Below are positions 332 through 15,743 of a stretch of DNA of 33,281 nucleotides, piece after piece (position 1 is the first letter of the stretch; the number at the start of each line of letters is the position of its first letter). Under the pieces are notes generated by a model. That model saw only the letters and a list, made by a program, of their open reading frames with translations, made no database searches and was not told where the DNA came from. The position numbers and the translations under genes are program-made. The stretch covers positions 1-33,281 of the IMG/VR virus record IMGVR_UViG_3300000234_000015; one strand, 5' to 3'. The DNA comes from a virus.

Positions 332-498
332 TTTATCCCTACCTTTCCAGCGTTAACGGTAAGCGTTTTCTTAGTTGTGTCATCATAACCACCGACTTGA
401 ATATCGACACCACCACCAGAAAGAAAGTGGCGCTCGATTTCTTTGTTAAGCGTAAACTTCGCCAACAGATTTTCGACCTCTATCAATATCGTAATCAT
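328..498 (-). CDS. Small hypothetical protein (56 aa)
   Basis: Product not recognised. The protein begins MITILIEVENLLAKFTLNKE and has a central GGG followed by a beta-rich half (VDIQVGGYDDTTKKTLTVNAG). It has no membrane segment. The ATG overlaps the SF2 helicase stop codon (ATGA), and a GGGGGAAAG ribosome binding site precedes it. Its own stop overlaps the next start in the same way. The tight coupling to the helicase suggests co-regulated early expression. An accessory role to the helicase is possible but not shown. Confidence 0.5.
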   Translation of the reverse strand: MITILIEVENLLAKFTLNKEIERHFLSGGGVDIQVGGYDDTTKKTLTVNAGKVGIK

Positions 499-1994
499 GC
501 TACTTTCCCCCTTACGTTTTTCTGCTGCCTTGCCCGATAGATATTAGAAGCCCAGCCAACTGGTGATTTATACCCGCGAGATTTGGCCAGCTTAATCAGG
601 TCTTCCATTGTCTCTGCCCTTCCCTGCTCGATAAGGCTTTTATATTTCTGTTCCTGTTTCAGGCGCTTCATTTCTTCCTTGTCTAGCTTCACAAGCTCGC
701 CGTCCACTTCATCTATCTCACGCCCGATGACGGGATAAACCATTCCGCATTGATGGCAGACAGGCGCGGGCGTGTGGACATAGTAGCACTTGGGGCATTG
801 GCGTGATGGCGGGACTGGCTCGCTGCCAATCTTCTTCCCCTTCTTCCGGCTGTCCAGTGTCCACTCCCTTTCAGAGCAAGGCAGACCATGCTCCATGTAG
901 TTGTTAACGTGATCGTTGATAATCGCGGGCGTGATCTTGTAACGTAACACTCGCCCCCAGAATTGTAGCTGCGCCGCAAGCGACTTTGTGGGTTTCAAGT
1001 CACTTGCACTCTCGACACAGACATCCATGCCGGACGCTTGCGACAAGTCAAAACCGAAGTTAAGAAGGTCACAGAAGGTTAGGACTGTGAACTCTCTGCG
1101 TGCGTAGGCCTTAAAGATGCGCTTACGTTCTTCCATCGGCGTTTCGCCATCGATATGCACAGCCGACACACCAGCGTTCCTGAACGTCTCCGCGACGATC
1201 TGCGAGTGTCTTACAGATGCGCACCTTACAATGTGAAGGTTTCCGTTGCAGCGCCTGATATAATCATTCACACAGTCTCCGATGATAACGCCCTGCTGCT
1301 CCATGTATTGGCCAAGCTGCACCTGATTATAATCGCCATCCCCTACCTTGATCTTTGAAAGGTCTGGCTTCGTGCGCCCGTAATAATAATCATAATCGGA
1401 CAGGCGTTTGTTTTCGATCAACCATTGTATTGACCTGCCCTTAACCATGTGGTCATACCATATGCCCAGACCCTGCCCATTCAGCTTCCATGGCGTTGCA
1501 GATAGGCCGATGACCCACGCGCCTTGTTGTTTGTAGAAATTAATCATCTTGCCAAGATTTCCGGAACCGTAGTGAGTTTCATCAACAAGGACGATATACC
1601 CTTTGGGGAGTCTGCTCGTTGTTAACAAGCCAGTTTCCTCATCCTCATCTATTCTCCCCGTCATTGTCGGAACCATGCCGATATAGACAGGCGACAATGG
1701 ATTGTAGTGCTTGCCCGCCGCGATATAGCTGTGCTGGATGCGATACTTTGTAAGTGTTTCGCTCGTCTGTTCGAGAAGGTCTTTGCGCGGAACGGTAAAT
1801 ATGATTTTCCTGTCTCGCAGGCGGGCGATGTCTTCCTGTTTCGCCACGGCCTTCATAATCATATAGACCGCCATTGCAGTTTTCCCTGACCCTGTAGGCG
1901 ACTGGAGAAGGATAGATTTATGGTTTCGCATAGCTGTGCGCAAGGCCACCATAAGTTCCTGTTGGTCAGAGAATAATTCGAGCGCCTTAGTCAT
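495..1994 (-). CDS. SF2 (DEAD/DEAH-type) DNA helicase with C-terminal zinc ribbon
   Basis: The 499-aa protein shows the superfamily 2 helicase motif series in order. These are motif I (Walker A) SPTGSGKT at about 32-39, motif II DETH at 138-141, motif III SAT at 165-167, and motif VI QFWGRVLR at 344-351 with the arginine fingers. After the two RecA-like lobes comes a C4 zinc ribbon (CPKC at 400-403, CHQC at 413-416) and a charged helical tail. SF2 helicases of this kind in phages unwind or remodel DNA during replication or recombination in the cytoplasm. The start chosen is the ATG at 1994 (MTKALELF), which overlaps the stop of the upstream primase-helicase gene by 8 nt. A longer reading to 2090 would lie wholly inside that gene. 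Substrate and polarity cannot be read from sequence, and a UvsW-like annealing helicase is an alternative. Confidence 0.88.
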   Translation of the reverse strand: MTKALELFSDQQELMVALRTAMRNHKSILLQSPTGSGKTAMAVYMIMKAVAKQEDIARLRDRKIIFTVPRKDLLEQTSETLTKYRIQHSYIAAGKHYNPLSPVYIGMVPTMTGRIDEDEETGLLTTSRLPKGYIVLVDETHYGSGNLGKMINFYKQQGAWVIGLSATPWKLNGQGLGIWYDHMVKGRSIQWLIENKRLSDYDYYYGRTKPDLSKIKVGDGDYNQVQLGQYMEQQGVIIGDCVNDYIRRCNGNLHIVRCASVRHSQIVAETFRNAGVSAVHIDGETPMEERKRIFKAYARREFTVLTFCDLLNFGFDLSQASGMDVCVESASDLKPTKSLAAQLQFWGRVLRYKITPAIINDHVNNYMEHGLPCSEREWTLDSRKKGKKIGSEPVPPSRQCPKCYYVHTPAPVCHQCGMVYPVIGREIDEVDGELVKLDKEEMKRLKQEQKYKSLIEQGRAETMEDLIKLAKSRGYKSPVGWASNIYRARQQKNVRGKVA

Positions 1995-4854
1995 CGAGCT
2001 TAATCTCCTCGCTGTCGTCGTAAGTCTTCTCAGGCTTTGGAAAATCAAAATCAGGCTGTGCCATACCAATGAACATGTAGCGCGGAACAATAACCGTTGA
2101 CGTTCTGACCCCGACCGAAAAATAAAGTGTTTGGTTAAACTTCCTCGCCCCTTCCAGTTCTGACAAGCGAGCCTGATAGCTATCCATCCATTCAGTTCCG
2201 CGAAGTAGTGACCTTAAGTTCTCGTGCTTTGTTGCAAAGTGAACATCGTTGCCGAGGCAGGCGATGCCATAGCGGCGGAGAAAATTATCTTCATCCGATC
2301 CCTTCCTGCCCCCTTCGCTGATTATCTCACCGAAGGACACTTCCTTAAGGACACCCCTCGATGTGAAGCGAGCGAGCGAAGAACAAATATGTTGCAACAG
2401 CTTCTCCGGCTCACTCTTATGTTCAATTGTCGTGTGGTCGTTCCAATTATATTTGCTGATCCAATCCAGCGCGAAGTCGTAGGTCACAACGCAAGTAGAA
2501 TGGAGAAGATAAAGCCCAGCAATCATCGTGCCTATCTGCTCCCCTGCTCTGGCACTGCCCAGAACCTTACGCGCCGCACGCTGGAACGTCTTGATATTAG
2601 CGAGCAGGGTTTTCATGTGCTTAATCGTGCGTGCCTGTAGCCTGCGCGAAAACTCGTCTGTGATGTGTTGGTCGAGCATGTCCGTAATCTTGTCGTAATC
2701 TGCGATCGCTGTCGTCTTCCGGTTTTTGATAATCCTAAAGAAACTTATCCGGCTTTCGTCAGCAGATTTATTGACTGGCGGATTGATAGATGAGAAGCAG
2801 GCTGCGAACCTGATGCGGCTTTCCCCCTGCCCAAACTTTCCGACAATGGCTCCTGTTGTCGCCTTTCTTGCCAGTTCTATAACATCCTTCGTTGTCTGTG
2901 TTGGCTCTGCCTCATCATAAAAAATAGGGCGAGCGTCTGCCTTCATGGTCGCGCGCAGCGCTGGCTCTGTGTATCCGCCGCACGCTTCAATCCCGATGCG
3001 GCCTAAGATGACTTTCACAATGCGATTAAGAACGGTTGATTTGCCGCTCTCATGCTCTCCGGTTATCCAAATGTGCGGGCGGTATTCCGCTCCCTTCGTG
3101 TATTCTAGGCCTCCGCAAACAGGGGCTATGACAAGCCACCCAGCGAGCAGCGCACCGGAAAGAGGATTTTCCCATGTCACAAGCTCACACACGTTCCGGA
3201 GAATAACGGCCTCCGCGTTAGTCAGAGGCTCGACATCGTATGGCCTCATCATCTCGACTGTTTGAATGTAGCAGTATTCACTCTTCAACATATCGAAGGG
3301 AACGACAATCCCATCAACAAAAAGTTTCCTGCCACAGTTCACAACAACGCGGCCTTCATCCATCCACGCCCCTGCGCCCCTGATATAGTCGTGCTGTTTG
3401 AACACACCAATCTTATGACACTCTTGAACCATCGCGTTCTGTGCCATCAGCGCCATTTTTTTATCGCTTACGTTCCCGCCTTTGTCTGAAAAAATTGAGT
3501 TCTTCCAATTATCATAGTTATCTAAACAAATAATGTTTTGGATATTATGTTGAGATGGCGACAAGTTAATAATATCTCGTTGCGCGAAGCTGTAATAATA
3601 ATACAAGCCGCAATAGTGCCCTAAGCACCTAAAGTTAAGCCCGCAAAATCCGCTCGATGGCACTTCAAGCGTTTCGATTTGCGGCTCTGGTGGTGGATAG
3701 TCTGGCTCCAAATACCCAGGAACAGGTGGAAAATAATCGCCGCCGTGGGGTTGCTGATCTGGATCGCGGTCTGCGCCCAGCCCCACGGCGGTTTCACCCT
3801 TTGCAGGGATTGCATGGACAGCGGCCATAATTTGTTCTGCCACCGCCGCCTCGCCAAACATAATGGCTAGGTCGTTAAAGTCTGTTGGCTTGTTGTCCAA
3901 GGGCAAGCCATCGAAGCAGGGCGACACTACGGACGCGCCGCCGCATTTGGCCGCCGCCTGTCGTGCTTTATCTATCCCGACATTCCAAAGCATACCAGCC
4001 TCGCGCCAAGCTTCCCAGCGTGGGTCATCTGCTGCCACCTCTCTGGCTATAACATCCTTTGGGCGCTTGCTGTTTTCGAACGTCCAAGCGTCATTGTCGG
4101 CGCAGAGGACAAACTTTGCTTGCGGAAACTTCAGCTTCAGCGAGTGAAGGGCATAGACTAGGTTGCCGCTATCAATCGCGGCTGCGACTGGCAGGCCTGT
4201 TGCTTGCCGGATTGTCGCGCCTGTTGCAAATCCCTCGCATATTAGAATAATCCCCAAGTCTTCGCCTTTTTTGACGAACGGGAAATAATTCCCTTTCTTT
4301 TTCCCGCCGATGAAAAGAAACTTTTTCCCATCTGGTGTAATCCGCTGGATTGAATAAACAAGACCATCCGCGCCATAAACAGGAACAATTACTTCATTCC
4401 CCTTGGGACGAAACTTAATGCCATGCGCCTCAATTTGTTTGCGCTGGCAATATAGGTTTTTATTTGGTCTTTCTAGGTTCAGCTTGGGGAGGTTCTTAAA
4501 GGCTTTTGTGAGAAGGCGGGCAAGGCGTTTGTGTTTTTTCTCTAGTGCCTCAGTTTTCTTTTCTTCGTATTCCTTAATATGTTTATTTCTTTCTTTGCGC
4601 TCTTGCGCCGTCAGCTTGGTTCTCGATTTCGAATGCCAACTGTATTTTTTATCCTGATCCCTTCTGTCCATGTAACAACCATAGGCGAAGTCAGCACCAG
4701 CAATCTTCATGGTGTATGCGCCATGGGGTTTATTGCGGCTGTCGCCCTCCATGTAAGCGGGCTGCCATTTGTTATCGGCAATCAATTTGCCGTCTTTTGG
4801 ATTGAACCCTGCGGCAATCAGCGCAGAATGAAACTCATCTATTAAATCTAACAT
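1987..4854 (-). CDS. Bifunctional Toprim primase / P4-alpha-like helicase
   Basis: The 955-aa protein has a charged coiled-coil-like stretch (about 80-120) and then a Toprim catalytic domain. The Toprim glutamate is in CEGFATG (206-212), and the acidic signatures are CADND (251-255) and DFND (325-328), as in P4 alpha/TraC-type primases. A proline-rich linker (about 360-400) leads to a helicase half with Walker A GEHESGKS (599-606) and a Walker B-like PIFYDEAE (643-650), similar to DUF927/P4-type helicases. It is expected to lay primers and unwind the fork for phage replication. No N-terminal zinc finger is seen. The start at 4854 (MLDLIDEF) is preferred over ATGs further upstream (4881, 4980), because a promoter-like element sits at 4884-4914. 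It heads the coupled operon with the SF2 helicase. Confidence 0.85.
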   Translation of the reverse strand: MLDLIDEFHSALIAAGFNPKDGKLIADNKWQPAYMEGDSRNKPHGAYTMKIAGADFAYGCYMDRRDQDKKYSWHSKSRTKLTAQERKERNKHIKEYEEKKTEALEKKHKRLARLLTKAFKNLPKLNLERPNKNLYCQRKQIEAHGIKFRPKGNEVIVPVYGADGLVYSIQRITPDGKKFLFIGGKKKGNYFPFVKKGEDLGIILICEGFATGATIRQATGLPVAAAIDSGNLVYALHSLKLKFPQAKFVLCADNDAWTFENSKRPKDVIAREVAADDPRWEAWREAGMLWNVGIDKARQAAAKCGGASVVSPCFDGLPLDNKPTDFNDLAIMFGEAAVAEQIMAAVHAIPAKGETAVGLGADRDPDQQPHGGDYFPPVPGYLEPDYPPPEPQIETLEVPSSGFCGLNFRCLGHYCGLYYYYSFAQRDIINLSPSQHNIQNIICLDNYDNWKNSIFSDKGGNVSDKKMALMAQNAMVQECHKIGVFKQHDYIRGAGAWMDEGRVVVNCGRKLFVDGIVVPFDMLKSEYCYIQTVEMMRPYDVEPLTNAEAVILRNVCELVTWENPLSGALLAGWLVIAPVCGGLEYTKGAEYRPHIWITGEHESGKSTVLNRIVKVILGRIGIEACGGYTEPALRATMKADARPIFYDEAEPTQTTKDVIELARKATTGAIVGKFGQGESRIRFAACFSSINPPVNKSADESRISFFRIIKNRKTTAIADYDKITDMLDQHITDEFSRRLQARTIKHMKTLLANIKTFQRAARKVLGSARAGEQIGTMIAGLYLLHSTCVVTYDFALDWISKYNWNDHTTIEHKSEPEKLLQHICSSLARFTSRGVLKEVSFGEIISEGGRKGSDEDNFLRRYGIACLGNDVHFATKHENLRSLLRGTEWMDSYQARLSELEGARKFNQTLYFSVGVRTSTVIVPRYMFIGMAQPDFDFPKPEKTYDDSEEIKLDD

Positions 4855-5733: not shown

Positions 5734-5940
5734 ATGCAAAAATACCTCTTAACAATCGTGGCGCTTGCAGCAGGTGCAGGCGCGGTCTATGGCGGTTTTC
5801 TGGCTGGATCGGCTTTCACGGCTGATCATTACCAGCGTGTTGCACTTTCTCGCGGGTTTGGTGAGTTGGATGGGAAGACGCTTCAATTCGTTTGGGCGGA
5901 ACCCATTGGCTTAAATCTGCCAGCTAGTGTGACAAAATAA
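5734..5940 (+). CDS. Small membrane or exported protein (68 aa)
   Basis: Product not recognised. The N-terminus MQKYLLTIVALAAGAGAVYG and the following GGFLAGSAF form a single hydrophobic, Ala/Gly-rich segment at about residues 4-28. It reads as a signal anchor or an uncleaved signal peptide. The remaining 40 residues are soluble. The start at 5734 is fixed by AAAGGAG eight bases upstream; a longer frame from 5692 has no ribosome binding site. It is the first of three small rightward genes ending at the terminator at 6454-6481, and is probably an accessory envelope protein. Confidence 0.6.
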   Translation: MQKYLLTIVALAAGAGAVYGGFLAGSAFTADHYQRVALSRGFGELDGKTLQFVWAEPIGLNLPASVTK

Positions 5941-6500: not shown

Positions 6501-6671
6501 TTAGGGCGCGGCGCGGCGCTTTTTGCTCCGTTGTTCCCTAGAAAAATACGCGATTAGCGCCTTTTCTATGATTTCTGACATGGTTGTTTCGTTGTTAATC
6601 GCTTCTATTTGCAGCGTTTTTTTGGTTGAGCTACTGATTGAGACGTGCATTCGCCTGTGTGTTTCTGACAT
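6501..6671 (-). CDS. Ribbon-helix-helix (CopG/Arc-type) DNA-binding protein (56 aa)
   Basis: The 56-aa protein fits the ribbon-helix-helix pattern. A short basic-polar beta strand (RRMHVSIS, 6-13) is followed by helix 1 (STKKTLQIEAINNE, 14-27), the turn TTMSE, helix 2 (EIIEKALIAYFSRE) and a basic tail (QRSKKRRAAP). RHH proteins bind DNA as dimers through the beta strand and act as repressors or as centromere-binding partition proteins. The start at 6671 is set by AAAGGGA; a longer frame to 6746 would run through a promoter. The promoter at 6705-6733 and a palindrome GTTTCCGAAAC at 6695-6705 suggest autoregulation. It sits beside the AAAACGCATAAT repeats, which are its likely targets by proximity. 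No ParA partner is in the window. Confidence 0.75.
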   Translation of the reverse strand: MSETHRRMHVSISSSTKKTLQIEAINNETTMSEIIEKALIAYFSREQRSKKRRAAP

Positions 6672-6733: not shown

Positions 6734-6750
6734 TGGCTACAGACACGTGG

Positions 6751-6774
6751 AAACCGCCTTCACGGGCGGTTTTT
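6751..6774 (+). terminator. Rightward terminator-like hairpin before the repeat array
   Basis: AAACCGCC (6751-6758) pairs with GGCGGTTT (6765-6772), with loop TTCACG and a T5 run at 6770-6774. No rightward gene ends immediately upstream, so it may shield the repeat region from read-through or end a short RNA. Confidence 0.55.
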
Positions 6775-7027
6775 CAAAACGCATAATCGGTTTTGCGTTT
6801 CTGCTCCAGTGTTTTCAGTGGGTTAGGTGTAAAACGCATAATCGGAAATAATACTTTCTGCGTTTTACGTTTTCGTGTTACTGCATTGGAATAGCTGACG
6901 TATTCGGTTTTTTTTCTATTACTTTCATGCAAAACGCATAATTTTCCAGGAAAATACAGGGGGTCAGGCGCGTGCGCGTAGCGCGTGACGCGCGATGCGC
7001 ATGCACCCGCGTATGAGGCGAATTTTA

Positions 7028-7058
7028 TTGACATAAATTATGCGTTTTATCTTATTAT
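7028..7058 (+). promoter_or_regulatory. Promoter-like site with an iteron in its spacer
   Basis: TTGACA at 7028-7033 is followed by an AT-rich -10 zone (CTTATT at 17 bp, TATTAT at 19 bp). The inverted repeat copy 7037-7048 lies between the two. A protein bound to that repeat would block RNA polymerase. Transcription would run through the AT-rich block toward the structural operon, and could be an origin-activating or priming transcript. Confidence 0.45.
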
Positions 7059-7094
7059 ATATATATTTTTATATATAAATAATAATAATAATAA
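7048..7094. other. AT-rich block, candidate DNA unwinding element
   Basis: This is about 47 bases of almost pure A/T, including alternating TATATA and an ATA/AAT triplet run, placed directly after the GC-rich block and inside the repeat array. Such a stretch melts easily and is what an iteron-type origin needs, although promoters can also look like this. Confidence 0.5.
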
Positions 7095-7601
7095 GGGGTT
7101 AGGGCTGGACCGCAAAACGCAGAAAGTATTAAATTGAATTATGCGTTCCACATCCGTAACGACCGGATATTCGCCTTCTCTTTCATCGGCTTATACCCTA
7201 TAACCACAAACGCATAATATTTTTTAAAAAACGCATAATGCATTTCATCCCGTGTTTTGCAGGGTCAAATAATACTTTCATGTTTACAAAAATTATATCA
7301 ATTGCGTAACGACGGCCTTTTTCCCCTTCGCACCAAAGTGTTATCGTTTTTACGTAAAACGCATAATGACACGAAAAGCAAACGGGTTTTTAGCCCTCAA
7401 ATCACTGAAAAATACCTCGAAGTGTTAACAAAAGGTTAAGAAATTAACTTGTGTCGAAAAGTGTCCCCAAAAGCTAGGCTGGGCAAGCTGCGCGTTGAGG
7501 ACGGGCGTTAACCATTTCCGATGAAGATTTCAGGGCTGACCGACGAAAAAACCGCCCCCCAATCGTTAATTTTTCAGCCTGCCCGCCCTGAATATCGGAG
7601 C

Positions 7602-7630
7602 TTGACACATCCGCCTGCCCTCTGCTACCT
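7602..7630 (+). promoter_or_regulatory. Promoter of the structural-gene operon
   Basis: CTTGACA (-35 at 7602-7607), a 17-bp spacer and CTACCT (7625-7630) match the common alphaproteobacterial promoter form, about 50 bp before the first structural-operon gene at 7680. The stretch 7440-7600 just upstream has no gene. It shows only short inverted repeats (TTCAGGGC 7529-7536 with GCCCTGAA 7585-7592, and GGCTGA 7534-7539 with TCAGCC 7574-7579). Confidence 0.6.
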
Positions 7631-7679
7631 CTCTTACAAGGCATAAAACCGCCTCAACTAGTGGGAAAGGTCACGAACA

Positions 7680-8021
7680 ATGAAGATGTATCCAGCACTA
7701 AACGAATCCGTTTCCTACGCCCGCGCCGACGAAAAGGGCGTGACACATACAGGGACAGGCAAGGTTCAAGCTATCTTCATCGGCTCACCTGATCGCCGTT
7801 TGATGGTGCAGGTTAAGGACGAAACAGAGGCAGCTTGGAACGTCGATTTGGCGATGATTAACCCGACTGAAGAAGAGCTTGCCGCGTATCGGGATGCTGT
7901 CAAAGAGGTGCAGGCTATCACTGAAGAGGGCAACGGCAAGGTTAAGGCTATCGTTGACGAATACAACGATAAGGTGCAGGGTATTTATGTCAGCGTTCTG
8001 GGCAATGCAGTCGAGGCCTAA
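7680..8021 (+). CDS. Hypothetical protein (113 aa), first gene of the virion operon
   Basis: Product not recognised. The N-terminal half is beta-rich (MKMYPALNESVSYARADEKG, then VQAIFIGSPDRRLMVQVKDE). The C-terminal half is a charged helix (EEELAAYRDAVKEVQAITEE and on) with the recurring pattern GKVQAI / GKVKAI / DKVQGI. There is no signal or membrane segment. The ATG at 7680 has an AAAGG site about ten bases upstream; a second ATG at 7686 is possible. It precedes the small terminase gene by 14 nt. A packaging or regulatory role is possible from position only. Confidence 0.65.
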   Translation: MKMYPALNESVSYARADEKGVTHTGTGKVQAIFIGSPDRRLMVQVKDETEAAWNVDLAMINPTEEELAAYRDAVKEVQAITEEGNGKVKAIVDEYNDKVQGIYVSVLGNAVEA

Positions 8022-8035
8022 CCAAGCGGGGTGCG

Positions 8036-8581
8036 ATGTTGTCAACTATGGCTAGTGATAGAGAGCGTAAGTTTTGCGAAGAATACGTCATCGACTTTAA
8101 CGCCTCACGCGCCGCTACCGCTGCTGGCTTTGCCGCGACAACCGCTTCTAGTGAAGCTTACAAAACACTGAAACGGCCAGATGTCCAAGAATACATACGA
8201 TTCTTGAAAGGCGAGCAGACAGTCAGGGCAAAGGTCAATGCGGATTACGTTCTTTCGGCTATCGTTGATACACTGGAACGTTGCAAGCAAGAGGTAAAAC
8301 CAGTTTACATGGCAGGCGGCGGAGGCGGCGGGGCTAACGTGCAACAGACCGAAATTGATAAAGACGGTAATCTGGCTGCAGTATATAAGTACGATGCCAA
8401 AAGCGTGCTTAAGGCCGCCGAATTGCTTGGCAAGTCATTAGCCATGTTCACGGACGTTGTTGACCAGCGCATGACGTTCACGCAGATGCCAGACGTGAGG
8501 ATTGGAACGGCAACGGGCGAAACCAAAGCCCTGTCCTTTGACGTGGGAGAAGCGCCTAATCCGCCCAAAGCCGTTTCTTGA
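8036..8581 (+). CDS. terS: Terminase small subunit
   Basis: The 181-aa protein has the N-terminal helix-turn-helix region of the Terminase_2 family. The signature is RERKFCEEYVIDFNASRAA, then the AAGFAATTASSEAYKTLKRP segment and DVQEYI, within residues 8-57. A helical oligomerisation region follows, interrupted by a glycine-rich loop (AGGGGGGAN near residue 95), and then a C-terminal tail. The protein recognises phage DNA and recruits the large terminase for packaging. ATG 8036 has a weak GGGG site; ATG 8048 is an alternative start. Its partner terL starts only at 13823, so about 5.2 kb of other genes separates the two, which is unusual since they are normally adjacent. Confidence 0.8.
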   Translation: MLSTMASDRERKFCEEYVIDFNASRAATAAGFAATTASSEAYKTLKRPDVQEYIRFLKGEQTVRAKVNADYVLSAIVDTLERCKQEVKPVYMAGGGGGGANVQQTEIDKDGNLAAVYKYDAKSVLKAAELLGKSLAMFTDVVDQRMTFTQMPDVRIGTATGETKALSFDVGEAPNPPKAVS

Positions 8582-13826: not shown

Positions 13827-15223
13827 ATGAAAGCATCGAGCCGATAGGCGCAGAGGAGCCGTCCAATCTTCCACGGTTAGGAGAGATGACGATCCCAATA
13901 ATCCTGCAGCTTCCTGAGAAGCTGATGCCTATGGTGACGGCCTTCAACGAATACACGCTGTTCTTGCTGGAAGGTGGGCGTGGTTCTGGGAAGTCACACA
14001 GCGTTGCGCGGTTTCTTCTTTTCCTCGGTGAGAAGCGGAAACTTCGCATTGTGTGTGGGCGTGAAATCCAAGCCAACATCGAAGAAAGCGTTTACACGCT
14101 CTTGAAGGATTTGATTGGCCAATACGACTTATCCTATGAAGTTTTCAAACATAAGATTGTGCACAAGTGGAGTGGTTCAGAGTTCCGCTTCAAGGGTTTC
14201 CGTGAGCAGGGGAACGTAAGCGTTAAGGGGCTTGAGGGCATTGACGTGTTGTGGATTGACGAAGCGCAGTCGATCACGAAGCCGACGCTTGACATCATCA
14301 TGCCGACGATTCGCAAGGAAGCCGCACGCGTATTCTTCACGATGAACCGCTACATGCGCGATGATGCGGTTCCTGAATACTGCGTCGGGAACGCCGACTG
14401 CCTTCACATCAAGATCAACTATCACGAGAATACTTACTGCCCGTTGTCTCTAAAGGTGCAGGCAGAGGCGATGCGCGAAAAGAGCGAGCGCGATTACAAT
14501 CACATTTGGATGGGTCTGCCGCTGCAACAGGCGGACGACTACCTGTTCAACCTCGAAAAGCTTCATAGCTGTTATGGCCGCGTGGCCTTTGGTGATCGCG
14601 TAGGAAGGCAGCGGGTTCTTGCTATCGATTTTGCGGCGCAGGGGAACGATCAATGCGTTGGGACTGTGCTTGACCGTTTAACCAATCAGCACTGGAAGTT
14701 GTCGGAGCGCATTCCATGGGATGAACCGGATACGATGGTTTCGGTCGGGCGTATTGTTGCCATGATAGGCGAGATGAAGCCTAACGTCACGATCATCGAC
14801 ATCGGCGGGATGGGGAAGCCTGTCTTTGATCGTTTAATCGAAGTCGGGATGAAGGTTATTCCGTTTGATGGCGGCGCGACGCAGGGTATTGAGAAAGACC
14901 ATTACGGGAATTGGCGTGCGCAGGGGTATTACACGGTGCGCGAATGGCTTGACCAAGGGTTCCTCATCGTTGACAAGAAGGACGCGGAGGTCGTAAAGCA
15001 GCTTGAAAAGATCAAGATGAAATACCGCTCGAACGGTATCCGCATGATCCAGCCCAAAGTTGATATGAAGGCGGATTTAGGCTACTCTCCTGACGATGCA
15101 GACAGCTTGATGATGGCGATTGTCGGGGCGGCCTACCATCTACGCGGGTCATCGAACACGATAGCTGGGAACGATGGGACGGGCTATAAGCGCAAGTACG
15201 ATGGTTCTCGACGCAAGATTTGA
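13823..15223 (+). CDS. terL: Terminase large subunit (packaging ATPase/nuclease)
   Basis: The 466-aa protein shows Walker A GGRGSGKS (51-58), Walker B plus catalytic Glu VLWIDEAQ (142-149) and the coupling motif FTMNRY (172-177). After a linker comes the RNase H-like nuclease domain with acidic residues in LAIDFAAQG (D269), TIIDIGG (D326) and SPDDADSL (D424/D425). This is the Terminase_3 family layout and length. The protein docks on the portal, pumps DNA into the procapsid and cuts the concatemer. All key residues are present, so it should be active. It is separated from terS by a 5.2-kb gene island. Confidence 0.93.
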   Translation: MNESIEPIGAEEPSNLPRLGEMTIPIILQLPEKLMPMVTAFNEYTLFLLEGGRGSGKSHSVARFLLFLGEKRKLRIVCGREIQANIEESVYTLLKDLIGQYDLSYEVFKHKIVHKWSGSEFRFKGFREQGNVSVKGLEGIDVLWIDEAQSITKPTLDIIMPTIRKEAARVFFTMNRYMRDDAVPEYCVGNADCLHIKINYHENTYCPLSLKVQAEAMREKSERDYNHIWMGLPLQQADDYLFNLEKLHSCYGRVAFGDRVGRQRVLAIDFAAQGNDQCVGTVLDRLTNQHWKLSERIPWDEPDTMVSVGRIVAMIGEMKPNVTIIDIGGMGKPVFDRLIEVGMKVIPFDGGATQGIEKDHYGNWRAQGYYTVREWLDQGFLIVDKKDAEVVKQLEKIKMKYRSNGIRMIQPKVDMKADLGYSPDDADSLMMAIVGAAYHLRGSSNTIAGNDGTGYKRKYDGSRRKI

Positions 15224-15257: not shown

Positions 15258-15743
15258 ATGGCCATCACTGTTGAAATTATTGAGAAGGGCGACGAAGCTG
15301 CGATCAAGCAGATTGTTTCCCTTTCCGGCGTTTTCACTAACGAATGCCTGTTGTTTCGCACGCTTGTGTTTGACGAAAGTAAATGTTCAGTTTTTACCCA
15401 TAAAGTGCAGCAATGCGGCGACATAATTCTTGCTTGTGTGGACGGGGTAGCGGCTGGCTATTCGGCTGTTGTTGAAGATGATACGGTTACAGAGAAACCG
15501 AGGCTTGAAATGGTGACGTTTTACGTTCACCCTTCGTTTCGGAATAGTGGTGTTGGGGCAGCGCTGGCCGACAAGGTTGTTGAGTTGATCGACGAGCGCG
15601 GGAATGGATATTCGCAGTTGGCTATTTGTGCGTATTTTGAAAATGATCGTGAAATCATACAACGCGCAACAGAACTCCTCTTCAAGCGGAGAGGTTTTAA
15701 GCAAGTTGGTGTAATCCTTGGAAAGATGGGAGACGAAAAATGA
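15258..15743 (+). CDS. GNAT-family N-acetyltransferase
   Basis: The 161-aa protein has the GNAT core. A beta strand leads to motif A (VTFYVHPSFRNSGVGAALAD, 86-105), with the acetyl-CoA pyrophosphate loop R-N-S-G-V-G-A, and then motif B (FKRRGFKQVG). It transfers acetyl from acetyl-CoA to an amine, with unknown target. AAAGGA lies upstream of the ATG, and the stop overlaps the next start (ATGA). GNAT genes next to terL and the portal are seen in several podoviruses. Possible targets are a host factor or a virion protein. Confidence 0.8.
   Translation: MAITVEIIEKGDEAAIKQIVSLSGVFTNECLLFRTLVFDESKCSVFTHKVQQCGDIILACVDGVAAGYSAVVEDDTVTEKPRLEMVTFYVHPSFRNSGVGAALADKVVELIDERGNGYSQLAICAYFENDREIIQRATELLFKRRGFKQVGVILGKMGDEK

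Follow-up and report, generated by a model that had tools for sequence, protein, structure and literature searches.

A predicted iteron-type replication origin that recurs, with different repeat words, in phages sharing the C-terminal half of a primase-helicase

The window analyzed here, a 33,281-nucleotide stretch of viral DNA that makes up IMG/VR record IMGVR_UViG_3300000234_000015, contains a cluster of short repeats (iterons) around an AT-rich block that we interpret, with a probability of roughly 0.83, as the theta-type replication origin of the phage, the presumed reader of the repeats being the C-terminal half of a 955-aa primase-helicase. The same arrangement, with other repeat words, is present in about a dozen different phages that share this kind of primase-helicase, which makes the cluster very probably a replication start site; as judged from the compared genomes, the identification as an iteron origin is strongly supported. 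The iteron/AT architecture is conserved without conservation of the sequence itself and is associated with the C-terminal half of the protein across many phages. To our knowledge, the replication origins of most sequenced phages are unknown. In the present case, the origin appears to be predictable from one protein family, for phages of widely differing hosts with genomes of 33 to 94 kb, the prediction rule being the strongest cluster of short words at the AT-richest spot.

Organization of the repeat region and its gene neighborhood

The 9-bp core ACGCATAAT occurs eight times within 592 bp (6776-7367), with six copies on the plus strand (starting at 6776, 6831, 6931, 7207, 7228 and 7356) and two on the minus strand (7037-7048 and 7138-7149). 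The count of six direct and two inverted copies within 600 bp, given in an earlier note on this DNA for a 12-bp word, is thus borne out for the core, and only six of the eight copies match the full 12-mer AAAACGCATAAT exactly (five on the plus and one on the minus strand), with one mismatch at 7207 and two at 7138. In the word search, the exact copies were located at 6776-6787, 6831-6842, 6931-6942, 7228-7239 (21 bp from the 7207 copy) and 7356-7367 on the plus strand and, inverted and touching the AT-rich block, at 7037-7048, whereas the two inexact ones read CAAACGCATAAT (7207-7218, plus strand) and GGAACGCATAAT (7138-7149, inverted). The same search revealed degenerate copies reading AAAACGCAGAAA at 6855-6866 (minus strand; the word type of the relative L008) and 7114-7125 (plus strand) as well as a weak copy at 6794. 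When all copies are counted, there are 11 TGCGTT cores, six to the left and five to the right of a 40-bp all-AT block. The 9-bp core was not found outside the cluster in a search of the whole 33,281-base record, so the word forms a single cluster and is not scattered over the genome; none of 100 dinucleotide shuffles reached the observed number of matches, and simulation of 60 sequences of 33 kb gave at most 3 copies of any 9-mer per 600 bp.

Composition analysis shows a GC-rich block (6968-7008) followed by an AT-rich block (7045-7096) between the repeats, in the order that had been noted before. The AT-rich block, which consists of (TA)n and (TTA)n runs, is the AT maximum of the whole record, with 100% A+T over the 40 bp from 7052, and is the presumed unwinding element. 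The GC-rich block is mostly alternating purine/pyrimidine; its 20-bp alternating tract at 6968 is the longest of this kind in the record. The longest alternating tract is located at the iteron region also in the relatives L008 and L009 and in phage PHB04; as a general feature, this tract was rejected, given that it holds for the window clade and PHB04 and fails in most other phages. A 17-bp string, CGCGCGATGCGCATGCA, is common to the window (6984-7008) and PHB04 (L043:45600-46060), the origins of which are otherwise unrelated, and in both cases lies inside the alternating tract near the AT block. Repeat comparison further showed that a 42-bp unit with two iterons face to face (left arm, 6828-6869) recurs in inverted orientation 241 bp further on (right arm, 7111-7152), the two arms being 81% complementary.

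The region does not appear to encode a protein, as the earlier note had held: among the open reading frames of at least 25 aa located in 6741-7690, none is matched convincingly by a frame in the equivalent position in the relatives, that is, the region is not a conserved gene. A terminator-like stem-loop (6746-6775, plus strand) immediately precedes the first iteron, and no annotated plus-strand gene ends there.

The leftward genes encode a DEAD/ResIII-type DNA helicase (phrog_16; 495-1994, minus strand) that is a constant partner in the surveyed phages, the primase-helicase (1987-4854, minus strand), a DUF6874 protein and, adjoining the iterons, a small RHH-like protein (6501-6671, minus strand; PF01402 E=0.0075, below the cut-off). 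The primase-helicase, the presumed initiator, matches phrog_35358, phrog_2249 and phrog_21086 and combines a TOPRIM N-terminal half with a P-loop ATPase and an unmodelled C-terminal half. Rightward are the gene for a 113-aa protein without known function, g113 (7680-8021, plus strand), the gene for the terminase small subunit, TerS (8036-8581, plus strand), and then head and tail genes, assigned by eye. The uncharacterised g113 proteins (113-127 aa) always adjoin the iterons in the window clade, being kept as the right-hand neighbor in L008, L009 and L013, and precede TerS in the window, L008 and L009; a search for relatives of g113 in known phages yielded no match. A GNAT acetyltransferase gene (15258-15743) lies between the genes for the terminase large subunit and the portal protein, and is present in L009 too (41% identity).

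Conservation of the layout in the window clade

The relatives in the window clade are three IMG/VR contigs, L008, L009 and L013, the last of these a short contig that starts within the region. The identity to the window is 70% (L008) and 54% (L009) for the primase and 50% (L013) for g113. Both L008 and L009 keep the full layout, with the RHH-like gene on the left, iterons flanking a (TTA)n/(TA)n block, the purine/pyrimidine tract, and g113-TerS on the right; in L013, the stretch from the contig end to g113 contains four iterons, arranged as two close pairs. The repeat word differs between the genomes, namely TTATGCGTTTT in the window, TTCTGCGT in L008, CTCTGCGT in L013 and TTCTGCCAT in L009, and can be followed from TTaTGCGTT to TTCTGCGT to TTCTGCCAT; the L008 form, TTCTGCGTTTT, is present in two of the window's own copies. 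Neighboring iterons in L008, L009 and L013, measured with words chosen after the regions had been seen, mostly have a spacing of 10-12 bp, close to one turn of the helix, and the spacing in the window is less regular (one 21-bp pair compared to 10-12 bp). No DNA similarity between the window region and the clade relatives was detected with blastn. A constant layout with drifting letters is what would be expected of an array of binding sites that coevolves with the protein reading it.

Nucleotide searches of phage and plasmid collections with the region produced no match, and a scan of genome contigs with the primase alignment found no relative. When viral contigs were scanned for exact copies of the word lying close together in pairs, two further contigs, L010 and L011, were retrieved and discarded as unrelated chance matches in coding-like sequence. 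In L008, inverted copies of ACACATGAACTTGT (3104-3257, minus strand) are located upstream of the RHH-like gene and are likely a separate operator of the RHH-like protein.

Survey of phages encoding the primase-helicase

A tblastn search with the primase yielded 79 phage records, and 15 records with a homolog of the C-terminal half were examined, namely the window, L008 and L009 along with Mwe-JY13, phi1422, PY223, MQ-4, KLER1-1, S-H1, Acjo_20, ZRG1, Dolphis, Mecenats66, ST4 and PHB04. Over-represented 6-mers on both strands in 400-bp windows were compared with the position of the AT-richest 50 bp. The top 6-mer cluster coincides with the AT-richest spot in 13 of these 15 records, which were hand-picked from the one tblastn list, are not all independent and include several genomes read in part. 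The cluster words include GGTAAC (12 copies in phi1422), GGTTAC (13 copies in the 93.5-kb genome of Dolphis), GCTACC (15 in ST4), CGTTAG (11 in ZRG1), GTTACA (12 in Acjo_20) and GATACC (10 in PHB04). The two exceptions are S-H1, where the cluster directly follows the primase gene, away from the AT maximum, and Mecenats66, where the signal at the AT maximum is weak, with few copies. The motif GTTA or GTTAC is common to most of the cluster words, and this points to a single family of readers.

As a positive control, the same scan recovers both crr and ori of P4, for which the origin repeats are annotated, and no coincidence of cluster and AT maximum was detected at k=6 in epsilon15, P2 and HK97. 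Phage T7 scores too, through repeats near its left end, so that the cluster statistic alone is no proof of an origin. The position of the cluster relative to the primase gene varies: it follows the gene in phi1422 and S-H1, precedes it in Acjo_20 and is 12 kb away in PY223. Because the word can be read phage by phage, the specificity between initiator and iterons, as well as its drift, is directly testable by swapping.

The candidate reader of the iterons

Alignment of the primase-helicases reveals a conserved C-terminal half (the P-loop ATPase and about 200 residues) behind varying N-terminal modules: TOPRIM, CHC2 (PY223, Dolphis), a P4-type zinc ribbon (S-H1, ZRG1) and PriCT-2 (Acjo_20, MQ-4). 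In PY223, S-H1, Acjo_20 and ZRG1, which have iteron clusters, the similarity to the window protein is confined to the C-terminal half; in ep3 and FoX2, which lack a cluster, it is confined to the N-terminal half. The RHH-like proteins of the window and L008 could not be aligned although the iteron words are alike, which makes the RHH-like protein, one of the two proteins named in the earlier note, an unlikely reader. Given that the cluster follows the C-terminal half, this half of the primase-helicase is the best candidate for the reader of the iterons. Under an alternative that we consider unlikely, the cluster would be a replication origin read by a different phage protein, such as the DEAD helicase or a small initiator that escaped notice, or by a protein of the host. 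The DEAD helicase indeed occurs in the surveyed phages as widely as the primase, but ep3 and FoX2, which lack the cluster, retain this helicase (shared with MQ-4, E 4.5e-165 or better), and it is the C-terminal half that the cluster tracks.

Neither Pfam nor NCBIfam contains a model specific to the C-terminal half, and the PDB contains no relative, so that the structure of this half would be new; the matches of the primase-helicase in a PDB profile search were dismissed as limited to P-loops and other chance similarities. The AlphaFold models are too poor for use (mean pLDDT of 33 for the whole protein and 48 for the C-terminal 176 aa), and accordingly, for the C-terminal half a DNA-binding fold is no more than a suggestion. 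We see an even chance that the C-terminal half represents a hitherto undescribed family of initiator helicases that load themselves and have a DNA-reading domain of their own; this half would have been joined to at least four N-terminal priming modules (TOPRIM, DnaG-type CHC2, P4-type zinc ribbon and PriCT-2), with one matching iteron/AT origin per phage and a word that drifted from a TGTTAC-like ancestor. In the literature searched, which covered few subscription journals, we found no description of iteron origins for this primase-helicase family.

Phage ctHz2215, in which the C-terminal half is of the VapE type, has a different and weaker cluster, with the word GTGGCTATA, at its AT-richest spot. 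These repeats (L030:19393-19710) are located just before the TOPRIM-VapE gene and possibly represent an origin of this kind that is paired with another type of helicase half.

Improbable alternatives: operator, partition and packaging functions

The cluster is located between divergent transcription units and therefore could be an operator array for the leftward RHH-like gene and the rightward g113-TerS genes, with the RHH-like or another small protein as the regulator. Iteron origins are often autoregulated, and in L013, the iterons overlap a promoter-like sequence, TTGACG-18-CATAAT, recognized by eye. However, the window region shows no excess of promoter-like sites (1 found compared to 2.3 expected), and the gene context of the cluster varies among the phages whereas the AT block is nearly always present, so that we regard an operator cluster as improbable.

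The earlier note had proposed either an iteron origin or a partition site, the latter implying a phage-plasmid. Plasmid RHH centromere-binding proteins read short repeats in both orientations, and the window, as in Omega/ParG-type centromeres, has short repeats in both orientations, the gene beside them being a candidate RHH gene with a PF01402 match below the cut-off; RHH-like genes flank the cluster in L008 and L009 as well, and in phi1422, a small gene lies after it. Nevertheless, no match to ParA (PF13614), ParB (PF02195) or integrase (PF00589) was found in the window, L008, L009 and L013, records that may be incomplete (in the ParA profile search, none of the 4 records compared to 14 of 14 controls). 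In addition to the failure of the RHH-like proteins of the window and L008 to align, described above, L008 has separate inverted ACACATGAACTTGT repeats next to its own RHH gene, a centromere needs no AT-melting block, and a centromere would leave both this block and the link to the primase-helicase unexplained. Of the two proposals, the origin is thus the one favored by the comparative evidence, and a centromere-like site bound by the RHH-like protein of a phage-plasmid is very improbable.

Least probable of all is a site for packaging or concatemer processing (cos/pac, or akin to the terminal CCTAAAG repeats of T7, which score in the same statistic): the cluster lies just upstream of g113-TerS in the window clade and stays with the terminase genes in L008 and L009 (with g113 in L013) but not in distant phages, most of which have it either next to genes for replication or at a large distance from the terminase genes, and it tracks the C-terminal half of the primase-helicase.

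Comparison with known origins

The predicted origin of the window would work like the origins of P4 and SaPIs but, judging from the domain tests made, belongs to neither group. The 8-bp repeats of P4, which have a spacing of 10-11 bp, occur in both orientations, as do the window iterons, and the presumed reader is a primase-helicase, the P4 alpha protein, the TOPRIM half of which is homologous to that of the window protein (hhalign probability of 99.6 over 261 columns). The alignment with alpha is, however, confined to the TOPRIM half, the C-terminal half does not align, and the D5_N, DUF5906 and Pox_D5 domains of alpha were not found in the window-type proteins. Moreover, the word of the window occurs in one cluster rather than in separate ori and crr sites, in a record that may be incomplete, and the surveyed viruses are complete phages, not satellites.

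The SaPI Rep proteins and the Cch and Cch2 proteins of SCCmec are self-loading initiator helicases in which the C-terminal domain reads iterons near their own gene (PMC7581432). An initiator helicase that reads iterons is also what is proposed for the window; however, the window protein has a fused primase and no D5-type Pfam match, and DUF927 (PF06048) was not detected, either at E up to 1 in the window protein or at E up to 0.01 in 15 family members. The distance between iterons and gene is about 1.9 kb in the window and 12 kb in PY223, and whereas the SaPI origin is directly downstream of the helicase gene, the window cluster is upstream, and those of phi1422 and S-H1 are downstream.

In the lambda origin, iterons lie beside an AT-rich unwinding region within the gene for the initiator O. 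The window iterons are likewise adjacent to an AT-rich region; the differences are that the lambda iterons are inside the initiator gene and that there is no O-type protein among the proteins scanned. The plasmid Rep families Rep_3 and RepA_N had no match among the selected open reading frames scanned with Pfam.

Proposed mechanism of initiation and additional support

For the iteron origin, the following sequence of events can be envisaged. The C-terminal half of the primase-helicase would bind the 8-10 bp iterons on either side of the AT-rich block and assemble as oligomers; the block would then melt, and the adjoining alternating purine/pyrimidine tract may store superhelical strain. Helicases would load at the melted block and travel outwards, and the N-terminal primase half would prime the strands for a polymerase, probably the host Pol III.

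The cumulative GC-skew check proposed in the earlier note places the minimum at or near the cluster: at 5757 in the window, 1 kb from the cluster, at 36899 in the L008 record (cluster at 36.4-36.9 kb) and at 14082 in the L009 record (cluster at 14.1-14.6 kb). These positions agree with an origin, but the evidence is confounded because the genes diverge at this point, which flips the skew as well.

No gene for a Pol III beta-clamp-like protein was seen in the window at the place corresponding to that of the relatives. In L008 (5602-6279) and L009 (8559-9200), such proteins (PF02767) are encoded beside the primase, in the replication operon, and in S-H1, a beta clamp is annotated beside the primase, all of which fits recruitment of the host Pol III.
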